The notes under the pieces are model-generated. The model worked only from the letters and a program-made list of their open reading frames with translations. It did not search any database and was not told the DNA's origin. From positions 62,001 through 126,000 of the forward strand of contig JAFDXR010000020.1 of the NCBI GenBank assembly GCA_018267825.1: a stretch of 64,000 bases of DNA, given 5' to 3'. Below, one piece after another: positions 14,070 to 62,612 of the stretch. This DNA is from Bacteroidota bacterium (GTDB lineage: Bacteria; Bacteroidota; Bacteroidia; B-17B0; Aurantibacillaceae). How positions within the stretch are numbered: the first letter of the stretch is position 1; the number at the start of each line of letters is the position of its first letter. The position numbers and the translations under genes were made by a program.

Positions 14070-14855
14070 TTAATGAAACAGATCCTTCGGGATCAGGCAC
14101 ACTGGAATAGCTTCCATTTTATGTTTATTGGCTTTATGGCGTGTGGTGTATATTTCCATCACGTGTTTCTGATGGGCATTCAGTTCATCCGGTGAACCAT
14201 TCTGTTCGAGGTAGGTCATGGCCCATTCCAGGTCGTCGTAGGTGGCACCGATCTGTTCTTCGTCGGTACGGCCATCTGCAAACAAACCATCGGTAGGGCG
14301 GGCATTCAATATAGAAGGGGTTACGCCTAATTCAGCAGCAAGGCTGTATACCTGCGATTTCATAAGATCAGCAATGGGACTCAGGTCTACACCGCCATCG
14401 CCGTATTTGGTAAAGAATCCAATGCCAAAGTCCTCAATTTTATTGCCTGTTCCGGCCACCAGCAGTTTATAGCGGCAGGCATAGGCATACAGGGTGGTCA
14501 TGCGCAGTCGGGCGCGGGTATTGGCCATCGCCAGGAAATCGTCGGTAACTGTTTTCTCAAAAGTGTTTTCCAGGGATTCAAAAGCGCTTGTCAGGTTGAC
14601 TTCAGCAGAGGATACATTACTGAAATTTTTTTTAAGCCATTCAATATGTTCGCTGCCCCTGTCGAATTCCGCTTTATGCTGGCGGATCGGCATATTCAGA
14701 ACCAGTGTTTTCTTGCCGGTGAGGGCACATAATGTAGAAGTTAAGGCTGAATCAATGCCTCCTGAAATACCGATAACGAAGCCTTCCGTACGGGAATTAT
14801 CGGCATAGGTATTGAGCCAGTTTACAATGTGTTTAATGATTTCCTGTTTGCGCAT
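14070..14855 (-). CDS. nadE: NH3-dependent NAD+ synthetase
   Basis: The 261-aa protein has the PP-loop SGGIDS at 31-36, the NTRARLRMTTLYAYA helix and GTGNKIEDFGIGFFTKYGDGGVDL (partly quoted), which are NadE active-site segments. It lacks the nitrilase-type glutaminase domain, so it uses free ammonia to amidate deamido-NAD. It is transcribed on the minus strand downstream of the barrel gene at 14936, but a strong terminator at 14885-14914 lies between, so it probably has its own promoter just upstream of 14855. Adjacency to gldB is something I recall from gliding flavobacteria. Confidence 0.93.
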   Translation of the reverse strand: MRKQEIIKHIVNWLNTYADNSRTEGFVIGISGGIDSALTSTLCALTGKKTLVLNMPIRQHKAEFDRGSEHIEWLKKNFSNVSSAEVNLTSAFESLENTFEKTVTDDFLAMANTRARLRMTTLYAYACRYKLLVAGTGNKIEDFGIGFFTKYGDGGVDLSPIADLMKSQVYSLAAELGVTPSILNARPTDGLFADGRTDEEQIGATYDDLEWAMTYLEQNGSPDELNAHQKHVMEIYTTRHKANKHKMEAIPVCLIPKDLFH

Positions 14856-15847: not shown

Positions 15848-15860
15848 AACAAATTTGTTT

Positions 15861-16883
15861 ATGCTGCGACGCTGCCTGCCAATTGTAAGTATTTTGTTAA
15901 TAGTAATATTTTACTCCTGTCACCCCGATAAAACCGAGGTCGACACCAGTAAAGTGACGATACCTCCGGTGCAGTTTATGCGCCTCGACAAGGATGTGTT
16001 CTCACTGACACCGGCCAACATCGATGCCCGGACAAAAGAGTACCAGAAAAAATACAAACAGTTTTACAACCGTTATGTATCCAATATTCTCAATAATGGT
16101 GGTGTTGTTGATTCCAGCTACTCCGAAAGCCTGCTTCGTTTTGTGAACGATAAAGACATGAGCGAAGCCTATCGCGAAATCGAAAAAAAATATTCAGACA
16201 ACGATGTGGCACTGATCGGCGAGGCACTCGAAGAACCGGTGAAACGTTTCAAGGCTTTGTTTCCGGCCCGCCGCATCCCGGCCCGTTATGTTACATTTAT
16301 GAGTGGTTTCAATTACAACGTGGTGTATGTCGATTCCACAATTGGTATTGGTCTCGACAAATACCTGGGAGCCGATAATCGTTTTTACAGCATGCTGCAA
16401 TGGCCTCGTTTCCAGGTGCGCCTTATGGACAAACCCTACATTGTGCCCGATGTGGTGCGTGGCTGGATGATTACCGAATTTGATAATTCAGACCCCGTAA
16501 ACAATCTGCTGAATCACATGGTATTTTATGGTAAAATTTATTACCTCTGCGATGTGCTTTTGCCCGATACCGACGATTCACTTAAAATAGGTTATACCAC
16601 GGCCCAGATGAAATACTGCCATGAATACGAGAAGAATCTCTGGGGCTATTTTGTGAAAGATAATCAGCTCTATGAAAACGACCTGAAACTGATTGCGCAA
16701 TATACAACCGATGGGCCCTTTACAGGTGCTATCAGCAAGGAATGCCCACCGCGTATAGCGATGTGGGTGGGCTGGCAGATTGTGAGAGCGTATATGGCCA
16801 ATAACCCGGAAGTAACACCGGAACAACTGATGAAAGAAAAGGACGTTCAAAAAATCCTTTCAAAGTCGAAGTATAAGCCCTGA
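15861..16883 (+). CDS. gldB: Gliding motility lipoprotein GldB-like protein
   Basis: A 340-aa lipoprotein. I chose the ATG at 15861 because it gives a clean lipoprotein signal with Cys20 (IVIFYSC); an in-frame TTG at 15855 is less likely. The body carries GldB landmarks: MRLDKDVFSL near residue 38, a PARYVTFMSGFNYNVVY segment near 138, GIGLDKYLG, an ending of RIAMWVGWQIVRAYM and a final VQKILSKSKYKP. GldB is an essential gliding lipoprotein in Flavobacterium and is often encoded by gldC; here gldC does not follow. The fold recalls zinc peptidases but no HExxH is present. The gene is probably co-transcribed with the flavoprotein gene 42 bp downstream. Confidence 0.85.
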   Translation: MLRRCLPIVSILLIVIFYSCHPDKTEVDTSKVTIPPVQFMRLDKDVFSLTPANIDARTKEYQKKYKQFYNRYVSNILNNGGVVDSSYSESLLRFVNDKDMSEAYREIEKKYSDNDVALIGEALEEPVKRFKALFPARRIPARYVTFMSGFNYNVVYVDSTIGIGLDKYLGADNRFYSMLQWPRFQVRLMDKPYIVPDVVRGWMITEFDNSDPVNNLLNHMVFYGKIYYLCDVLLPDTDDSLKIGYTTAQMKYCHEYEKNLWGYFVKDNQLYENDLKLIAQYTTDGPFTGAISKECPPRIAMWVGWQIVRAYMANNPEVTPEQLMKEKDVQKILSKSKYKP

Positions 16884-16925: not shown

Positions 16926-18404
16926 ATGGAACATTATGATCTGATTGTGATTGGAGGAGGCCCCAGCGGGTATGCAGGCGCCATGCGGGCTGTAGACTTT
17001 AAGAAAAAAGTACTGCTGGTTGAGAAAAAACGAATTGGCGGAGCCGGCATTTATGAAGGCGTACTCACATCGAAGACACTCTGGGAATTTTCACAAAAAA
17101 TATCGTCTATCCGTGAAATGCTCCCGGATTATAAAGTCGATTACGCCGATATTGTCAGGACCATGAAAGAGGCTGTATTTGAGCGCAAGACGCAAATGAC
17201 AGTTCACCTTCAGTTGCTGCAGAACTATATGGATAACAAAATGTTTTCCTATGAAAAAGGAGAAGCCCGCTTTATAGATAAACATACGATCTGCATCGTG
17301 AAAGAAGATGGGAATTTCAAGACTGTTTCTGCTGACAATATTCTGATTGCTACAGGAAGCCGCCCCCGTTATCTTTCACATATTCCGATCGACGAAAAAA
17401 TAATCATGACCAGTGATGGCATCCGCAATCTTACGGATATTCCGAAAAGCCTGGTGGTGCTTGGGGCCGGGGTTATAGGTTGTGAGTTTGCAACGATCTT
17501 TTCGAATTTCGGGCAAACAAAAGTATACCTCATTGATAAGGCCGATCGGATTCTTCCGTTTGAAGATGAGGATGTAGCAGCTGTTGTAACCGAGAATCTC
17601 GAGAAGCAGGGTGCTACCGTGCATCATGGTGTATCACTTAAACGCATGGAAATCATTAATGGTGAAGTGGAGTATGAGTTGGCTCATAAAGATGGCAGCA
17701 CCGAAGTATTGCGCGTAGAGAAAGCCCTGGTTTCGGTGGGCCGTGTGCCGAATATTGAAGGACTGGCACTCGAAAATGCAGGCGTGAAACTCAATGAGCG
17801 CGGCTGTATCTGGGATGATGATACACAGACCAATATCAGTAACATATTTGTAGCCGGCGATGTTACCACAGAGATGGCGCTCGTGAATGTTGGTGAGCGT
17901 GAAGCCCGCCATGCTGTTGTGCGCATGTACGGGCCTATTGTGAAGCCACTCTCTTATAAAAATATTTCCACCATCATGTTCCTCAATCCGGAAGTGGCCT
18001 GTGTGGGCATGAGCGAACAGGAACTCAATCAAAAAGGAATTCCGCATAAAGTAGTGAAGCTCGATTACAGTACCAATGCCCGGGCCATAGCCATGCGTAA
18101 GACCAAAGGTTTTTTCAAGATCATTGTAACCAACGATAATGGGATGCGTATTTTAGGTATGCGTGCTGTGGGAGAGCATGCCAGCTCAGCGATCCAGGCT
18201 GTGGCCTATTTGATCCATACCAACCAGGGCATCCGCGACCTGGCCGATATGATGCACCCGCACCCAAGTATTATTGAAGGAATCCAGGAATGTTTGCGTA
18301 TGCTGCTTGGCAAATCGATATACAAATCCTGGGTATTTAAAGATAAGCTGAAGTGCTATGTGTGCGAAAACGGTGTGTGTACACCGCTTGAGCAGTTGGT
18401 TTAA
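16926..18404 (+). CDS. Dihydrolipoamide-dehydrogenase-like flavoprotein lacking the redox disulfide
   Basis: The 492-aa protein has the class-I disulfide oxidoreductase layout: FAD-binding GGGPSGYAGA at 10-19, NAD(P)-binding VLGAGVIGCEFA in the middle, a second FAD motif NIFVAGDVT, and a C-terminal dimerisation domain ending with the HPHPSIIE dyad region. Where the family has GGxCxNxGCxPSK, this protein reads GGAGIYEGVLTSK (38-50), so both redox cysteines are replaced (by Gly41 and Val46). It therefore cannot work as a normal lipoamide or glutathione reductase; a transhydrogenase-like role resembling SthA is one possibility. A C-terminal cluster C477, C480 and C485 (CYVCENGVC) is unusual. It follows gldB by 42 bp. 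Confidence 0.85.
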   Translation: MEHYDLIVIGGGPSGYAGAMRAVDFKKKVLLVEKKRIGGAGIYEGVLTSKTLWEFSQKISSIREMLPDYKVDYADIVRTMKEAVFERKTQMTVHLQLLQNYMDNKMFSYEKGEARFIDKHTICIVKEDGNFKTVSADNILIATGSRPRYLSHIPIDEKIIMTSDGIRNLTDIPKSLVVLGAGVIGCEFATIFSNFGQTKVYLIDKADRILPFEDEDVAAVVTENLEKQGATVHHGVSLKRMEIINGEVEYELAHKDGSTEVLRVEKALVSVGRVPNIEGLALENAGVKLNERGCIWDDDTQTNISNIFVAGDVTTEMALVNVGEREARHAVVRMYGPIVKPLSYKNISTIMFLNPEVACVGMSEQELNQKGIPHKVVKLDYSTNARAIAMRKTKGFFKIIVTNDNGMRILGMRAVGEHASSAIQAVAYLIHTNQGIRDLADMMHPHPSIIEGIQECLRMLLGKSIYKSWVFKDKLKCYVCENGVCTPLEQLV

Positions 18405-61961: not shown

Positions 61962-62612
61962 TTAGGCTTGTTTCCACGTAGCCGGATTTTCGCGCCATTG
62001 CTTTAATGAAGCAAGGTCACTTTCGGCAATATAGTTTTGTTTCAGGGCAACTTCCACCAGCGTGTTATAATCGCAAAGCGTCTGGGTCGGGCAATTAATT
62101 TGTTTCAGACTTTCCGTTGCCACATCAAAGTTGTAGGTAAATATAGCAACCATGCCTTTCACTTTGCAACCCTGTTCGCGTAAAGCCTCAATTGCTTTAA
62201 TGCTGCTTCCGGCTGTCGAAATAAGATCCTCAATAACAACGACCGATTGGTTTTTTTCAACCACACCTTCCACCATATTGGTAAGCCCGTGTTTTTTTGC
62301 TTCGCTTCGCACATACACAAATGGTAAGCCCATATCCTGTGCAATTAAGGCGCCCTGTGCAATTCCACCGGTAGCCACACCGGCAATAACATCCGGTTTT
62401 CCAAACGATTCATTGATCACATTCACAAATTGCTGGCGAATGTAAGTACGAATCTGCGGATACGATAAGGTTTTACGGTTATCACAGTAAATAGGGGATT
62501 TCCATCCGCTCGCCCAGGTAAATGGTTGATCGGGTTGTAATTTGATAGCTTTGATTTGTAATAAAAATTCGGCAATTTTAACCGCCGCATCGTCAAATGG
62601 TGTCATCGTCAT
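61962..62612 (-). CDS. pyrE: Orotate phosphoribosyltransferase
   Basis: The 216-aa protein has the PRPP-binding motif VVVIEDLISTAGSSIKAIEAL (quoted in part), with the preceding FVYVRSEAKKHGL active-site loop and a SPIYCDNRKTLSYPQ N-terminal segment. It makes orotidine monophosphate in pyrimidine synthesis. The frame starts at 62612 (MTMTPFDD); a second ATG at 62606 is as plausible because the -7 element is only seven bases upstream. It converges with nothing and diverges from the Nudix gene across 46 bp. Confidence 0.95.
   Translation of the reverse strand: MTMTPFDDAAVKIAEFLLQIKAIKLQPDQPFTWASGWKSPIYCDNRKTLSYPQIRTYIRQQFVNVINESFGKPDVIAGVATGGIAQGALIAQDMGLPFVYVRSEAKKHGLTNMVEGVVEKNQSVVVIEDLISTAGSSIKAIEALREQGCKVKGMVAIFTYNFDVATESLKQINCPTQTLCDYNTLVEVALKQNYIAESDLASLKQWRENPATWKQA

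Follow-up and report, generated by a model that had tools for sequence, protein, structure and literature searches.

On sequence grounds, the gene analysed here belongs to a separate, conserved subfamily of glutathione-reductase/Lpd-fold proteins in the Bacteroidota, as yet unnamed, that is without the redox disulfide. Its probable function is direct hydride transfer. The gene lies in a window of 64,000 nucleotides, this being the whole stretch of DNA analysed (positions 62,001 to 126,000 of contig JAFDXR010000020.1), and its features are listed in Table 1. The reading frame is open from ATG to TAA, and the Pfam domains Pyr_redox_2 (residues 4-327) and Pyr_redox_dim (residues 347-455) both match the encoded protein far above their cut-offs.

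Table 1. Features of the gene and of its upstream neighbour, with positions in the window.
Feature	Position	Strand	Evidence or conservation
gldB, same-strand upstream neighbour	15855..16883	+	GldB PF25594, 321 bits; neighbour not conserved
CDS P0001, 492 aa, Lpd/STH-like FAD oxidoreductase, cysteine-free (box)	16926..18404	+	translation, Pfam
G38-K50, former redox-disulfide box GGAGIYEGVLTSK	17037..17075	+	positions 41 and 46 cysteine-free in all 135 members
NAD(P)-binding motif G180-D204, GAGVIGCE...LID	17463..17537	+	E187 135/135, C186 134/135, D204 129/135
R328	17907..17909	+	invariant in family, STH and LpdA-type rows; missing from Lpd rows
H446-E451 catalytic dyad, HPSIIE	18261..18278	+	135/135
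C456	18291..18293	+	132/135 in family; Ala in canonical rows
C-terminal extension 468-492	18327..18401	+	helix 468-473, hairpin 476-481/484-487
C477	18354..18356	+	tail cysteine
C480	18363..18365	+	tail cysteine
C485	18378..18380	+	tail cysteine

Loss of the redox disulfide and retention of the dyad

In Lpd, GR and MerA, cysteines occupy the positions equivalent to G41 and V46. In the window protein the box reads in full R36-I-G-G-A-G41-I-Y-E-G45-V46-L-T-S-K50, with both cysteine positions of GGxCxxxxCxxSK substituted. A first-pass annotation of this DNA had described these two substitutions beside an intact HPSIIE dyad, and its residue numbers are borne out by translation. It had also proposed a survey of the box among homologues, and the conservation counts given here rest on an alignment of 135 distinct full-length members. 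Position 41 is occupied by G (116), A (17), Q (1) or S (1) and position 46 by V (69) or A (66); with no cysteine at either place in any of these members, the annotation was right that ordinary disulfide chemistry is not possible. The canonical Lpd-like comparison rows, by contrast, have cysteine at both positions in 27 out of 27 cases. Private decay or sequencing error is therefore excluded as an explanation for the window sequence.

In the box and the dyad region, G38, G39, G45, S49, K50, H446, P447, E451, G452, and R458 are invariant (each in 135/135), as are E187, E324, and R328 elsewhere in the protein. The best-kept cysteines of the family are C186 and C456. The first is also found in Escherichia coli SthA, and the second is replaced by Ala in 26 of the 27 canonical rows, with no comparison group having Cys there.

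An AlphaFold2 model of the window protein, for which the input was 34 close sequences, has a mean pLDDT of 75.4. The pLDDT is below 50 at residues 40-47 and 444-448, therefore the model supports no claim about active-site geometry. When the model was used as a Foldseek query against the PDB, Lpd (6uzi) ranked first and a filamentous STH (9n4y) sixth; as both structure types are retrieved together, the fold search cannot separate the Lpd and STH hypotheses. Sequence and model establish the Lpd fold of the window protein, and likewise its cofactor motifs.

Distribution of the family

Of 87 genomes of the Aurantibacillaceae, the family of the window, 78 carry the gene, in one copy each (E <= 1e-120); among the 62 with a completeness of 90 % or more and no more than 5 % contamination, the number is 59. 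The gene is also found in 110 of 396 sampled genomes of the class Bacteroidia, to which the window belongs (E <= 1e-110), and in 11 out of 99 genomes of one order of another Bacteroidota class (E <= 1e-90). Across 296 genomes sampled from the whole phylum, the scores drop, among the matches listed, from at least 500 bits straight to 243 bits. The higher-scoring set comes from seven genomes, the window's own among them, and the inspected matches at 243 bits and under have the canonical CxxxxC. The class sample contains a further, more distant group (f85) at about 400 bits and 43-46 % identity, the three sampled boxes of which (L160-L162) are also cysteine-free. Among the plasmid matches listed, in a search limited to 5000 records, none was near the family, the best listed identity being 32.7 %, and no paper on this Bacteroidota family was found in the open-licence full-text literature.

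Three further Lpd-like proteins with an intact canonical CxxxxC are encoded in the window's genome, and these cover the E3 needs. Ordinary SthA was above its cut-off in one of the 396 class genomes (G650) and missing from the other 395. This sole protein over the cut-off (L240) has GGAGINTGTIPSK, a GXXXXT motif instead of CXXXXT; it carries the sequence GGAGINTGTIPSKTL and the dyad region NYPTLGD. Its box indicates that Gly at the place of the first cysteine occurs inside STH as well.

Placement among Lpd-fold relatives

In an NCBIfam scan of the window protein, for which the best 25 of 52 rows were considered, lipoamide_DH (TIGR01350) came first with 367.9 bits against a cut-off of 408.8. Scores for the STH model NF003585 (294.2 bits, cut-off 465), MerA (286.4 bits, cut-off 454.45), and the NAD(P)H-quinone dehydrogenase NF005883 (280.4 bits, cut-off 479) were lower, and no cut-off in these 25 rows was reached. 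The best-scoring family model thus invites mislabelling as dihydrolipoyl dehydrogenase, which the window protein cannot be.

A maximum-likelihood tree of 54 rows, from which the box, dyad, and tail columns were left out, places the window family in a clade of its own (support 100/100, stem 1.14). The Lpd rows (100/99), STH rows (100/100), and LpdA-type rows (100/100) form separate clades. The window family joins the STH and LpdA-type rows at a weak 85/78. In AU tests, none of the placements of the family as sister to STH (p 0.35), to the LpdA type (p 0.28) or to Lpd (p 0.24) was rejected, so that the tree is compatible with each of the three.

Individual residues point in more than one direction. 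R328 is present in all 135 family members, 10/10 STH and 3/3 LpdA-type rows and in none of 29 Lpd rows, and E54 is common to the window family and 70 % of STH rows. The equivalent of H446 is found in 29/29 Lpd rows, 0/10 STH rows, and 0/3 LpdA-type rows. Twenty positions, including W53, N321, L353, R391, R413, Q454, C456, and K467, are conserved in at least 95 % of the family and in at most 12 % of every other group. The acidic D204, after the second strand, suggests a preference for NAD(H). It was dropped as proof of NAD specificity, and hence as an argument against transhydrogenation, because several STH rows also have Asp or Glu there.

The C-terminal extension and its cysteines

Three cysteines within the last 16 residues had been pointed out previously, and translation places them at 477, 480, and 485. 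Their conservation, which had been left as a question, is uneven: C477 is mostly kept (125/135), whereas C480 (67/135) and C485 (75/135) are present in only about half of the family. At position 477, six rows have A, H, I or S and four have no residue. Residues are present at both 480 and 485 in 131 rows; of these, 66 have Cys at both, 55 at neither, one at 480 alone and nine at 485 alone. With the tail columns left out of the tree, at least five changes are needed for C477, 14 for C480, and 15 for C485. Ten independent pairs differ in C480; C485 changed in the same direction in eight of these, in the opposite direction in none, and was unchanged in two (sign test p 0.0078). In the same test, no link was seen between C477 and changes in C480.

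In the AlphaFold2 model (mean pLDDT 75.4), the two tail strands flank N482-G483, and by hairpin geometry residues 480 and 485 would oppose each other across this two-residue turn. Since they are gained and lost together and would face each other in such a hairpin, C480 and C485 probably form an optional cross-strand pair, either a disulfide or a metal site.

The tail thiols had been suggested as a substitute redox centre, and this is not supported. Besides the counts above, the three f85 proteins (L160-L162) stop short of the tail region and yet have a cysteine-free box. With the cysteines optional and the tail itself missing from these proteins, the tail is no general replacement for the lost disulfide, and this candidate is rejected on conservation.

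Gene neighbourhood

The first-pass annotation had noted that the gene directly follows gldB and had raised the linkage as something to follow across genomes. The upstream position of gldB in the window is supported by the PF25594 match; elsewhere, a gldB homologue was found in none of 122 other loci, in clusters above 28 % identity over 60 % of length and with low power, as contig ends truncate many loci. The gldB partnership was therefore set aside as a functional clue. Near gldB, at 14070..14855 on the reverse strand of the window, is what we take to be an NAD-synthetase-like gene. The arrangement of such a gene near gldB is one known from gliding Bacteroidota.

Other neighbours recur. By Pfam, an H+-pyrophosphatase gene is directly adjacent in 25 out of 120 distinct loci. 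In Aurantibacillaceae, a fusion of a membrane H+-pyrophosphatase (PF03030) with a C-terminal YceI-like domain (PF04264), about 930-970 aa in length, divergently adjoins the orthologue (L048:1038-3824, reverse strand; also L020, L025, L059, and L063), and both domains were present in 5/5 proteins scanned. The gene for a putative metal-chelating CxxCxxCC protein (PF03692, one member scanned) lies near the orthologue, upstream on the opposite strand, in seven loci outside the window's family (L175, L177, L180, L181, L182, L184, and L186). A di-haem cytochrome c peroxidase gene (CCP_MauG, PF03150, one member scanned) adjoins it in several families (L164, L165, L178, L190, L210, L212, L215, and L217).

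The genes pntA or pntB are at most two genes away in six of the 120 distinct loci, which come from five families (two g141 genomes, from the window's family, and one genome each from f56, f71, f81, and f78). In the g141, f56, f71, and f81 loci the pnt genes are downstream on the same strand, and in f78 they are convergent. Locus L182 has an extra ORF before the pnt genes, and L058 has no gene call for a separate small subunit. Pfam matches in one pnt locus were AlaDh_PNT_N/C, PNTB_4TM, and PNTB. On the tree, the trait of having a pnt neighbour requires at least five changes. Outside the window's family it is seen in four of 54 rows, with a Poisson probability for at least four of approximately 1e-6 if the chance per locus is assumed to be 4 in 3000 and kinship is ignored. 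Co-occurrence of the gene with PntB in the 396 class genomes is not positive: both are present in 54, the gene only in 56, PntB only in 181, and neither in 105 (odds ratio 0.56, p 0.012, uncorrected for phylogeny). In the window's genome, pntB is present on another contig. A role as an accessory subunit of Pnt was rejected on this lack of positive co-occurrence, although the pnt neighbourhood recurs.

Proposed function and rival explanations

The family is given an even chance of being a direct-hydride-transfer NAD(P)H oxidoreductase without a disulfide, with the other pyridine nucleotide as the first choice of acceptor and a quinone-like compound as the second. NAD(P)H would, with good reason, be expected to bind at the re face and reduce FAD. 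With G or A at 41 and V or A at 46 there would be no charge-transfer thiol, and the reduced flavin, having no thiol at these positions, would pass hydride directly to a second two-electron acceptor and not to a disulfide. That acceptor might be soluble, the reaction being transhydrogenase-like if it were the other pyridine nucleotide. Less surely, the retained His446-Glu451 of the partner subunit may act as an acid/base or pocket residue, and in about half of the family the C480/C485 hairpin pair could serve as an accessory cross-strand disulfide, a metal site or a redox switch.

R328 with E54, the pnt neighbourhoods, and the near-absence of SthA hint that the acceptor may be the other nicotinamide nucleotide, whereas the retained His446 and the lack of positive co-occurrence with Pnt argue against it, as does the NCBIfam ranking of lipoamide_DH above STH; a quinone-like or other small acceptor is nearly as likely. 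The transhydrogenase-like reading offered by the first-pass annotation thus stays live through R328, the 85/78 grouping in the tree, and the pnt neighbours in five families, but a strict transhydrogenase is disfavoured by His446, which is present in 135/135 members where STH has Tyr in 10/10. As a single-copy gene in 59 of the 62 good genomes of one family, it would be either the missing soluble transhydrogenase of an SthA-poor group or a new flavin reductase. Either identity, if true, would mean revising how NADPH balance in Bacteroidota is modelled.

It is possible, if doubtful, that these proteins are NAD(P)H:quinone or small-electrophile reductases, in which a quinone-like acceptor sits in the disulfide-free si-face pocket and is protonated by His446-Glu451. 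The pattern recurs in Irc15p, where the cysteines are replaced by Tyr and Ala and the dyad is kept; Irc15p reduces menadione, and Mycobacterium tuberculosis LpdA reduces quinones (both as described in excerpts from PMC6296175). The invariant dyad and the 20-position signature of the family also fit such a reductase. However, diaphorase or quinone activity is likely to be generic to disulfide-free flavins, so that the acceptor in the cell can hardly be read from this precedent, and there is no quinone-related gene among the recurrent neighbours for which domains were looked up. An unlikely proposal is that of a new catalytic class of the Lpd fold, namely a flavin reductase with two sites, one on the re face for NAD(P)H and the other, for a dedicated substrate, in the si-face cavity left empty. 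Hydride transfer would be direct, with protonation by the His446-Glu451 of the partner, in a family-specific pocket (candidates W53, E54, N321, R391, R413, Q454, C456, and K467) gated in half of the members by the co-evolving hairpin cysteine pair. The substrate would be a Bacteroidota metabolite for which reduction by an Lpd-fold enzyme is not known.

Very unlikely is a non-enzymatic or regulatory flavoprotein that binds FAD and nucleotide as a redox sensor. The optional cross-strand cysteine pair could act as a switch, and a change of shape under H2O2 has been proposed for Irc15p (excerpts from PMC6296175), but K50, E187, H446, and E451 in 135/135 and the 20 family-only positions point to catalysis. 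A dithiol enzyme like MerA or high-Mr thioredoxin reductase, with C-terminal cysteines from the partner subunit in the role of the lost disulfide, is extremely improbable. The retention of C477, the co-variation of C480 with C485, and the location of the tail after the dyad region, like the C-terminal CC in the MerA row, would fit it. Against this, a redox centre that was needed would not be optional, as C480 and C485 are, nor be replaced or missing in ten rows, as C477 is, and the f85 proteins that end before the tail still have a cysteine-free box. The family also provides a natural series on the role of the His-Glu dyad where the disulfide is gone.

Comparison with known systems

Dihydrolipoyl dehydrogenase (TIGR01350) provides the best NCBIfam score and the best fold match (6uzi), and the His-Glu dyad is common to both. 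It has a redox CxxxxC, whereas the window family has Cys at either position in 0/135 members and the window protein scores below the TIGR01350 cut-off. SthA/UdhA is a flavoenzyme of the same fold without a redox disulfide, with R328 in 10/10 rows and SKTLxE or similar past the box in most. Excerpts from PMC9460512 define STH by CXXXXT (SXXXXT in Streptomyces avermitilis) and Tyr in place of the dyad His, and report that E. coli SthA C45A retains transhydrogenation at about one-tenth of the rate, with more leak to H2O2. The STH rows likewise have Thr at position 46 and Tyr for His446 in 10/10, whereas the window family has V or A at 46, His in 135/135, and G or A (Q and S once each) at 41, and so does not conform to the STH motif.

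The actinobacterial LpdA type (NF005883) has the same fold and, like the window family, R328 (3/3). In the Arthrobacter row both cysteines are missing (GGSAVLTDVVPSK), as in the window family, and the other two of the three rows retain both (GGACVLTDC and GGACVLFDC). The LpdA type has lost both the His and the Glu of the dyad (YPSLTG/YPSLSG), which the window family keeps. M. tuberculosis LpdA, the quinone reductase mentioned above, is without one Cys and the dyad, according to excerpts from PMC6296175. MerA and high-Mr thioredoxin reductase combine a C-terminal cysteine pair with CxxxxC, whereas the window family is without CxxxxC and its tail cysteines are optional.

Irc15p of Saccharomyces cerevisiae, compared here by its description in excerpts from PMC6296175, is an Lpd paralogue in which, like the window family, both redox cysteines are replaced and the dyad (H457-E462) is kept. 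It is the nearest measured example found of a disulfide-free oxidoreductase of the Lpd fold. In those excerpts it is reduced by both NADH and NADPH and itself reduces menadione, DCPIP, MTT, and ferricyanide, and not lipoamide, glutathione or cystine. It is stated there to have arisen after the yeast whole-genome duplication, and an origin independent of the window family is presumed. The data on Irc15p, SthA C45A, and LpdA show that a disulfide-free Lpd fold can act by direct transfer from reduced FAD. By anatomy, Irc15p is the closest known protein; by R328 and the weak grouping in the tree, the closest are STH and the LpdA-type quinone reductases. The window family fits the defining features of none of Lpd, STH or the LpdA type.
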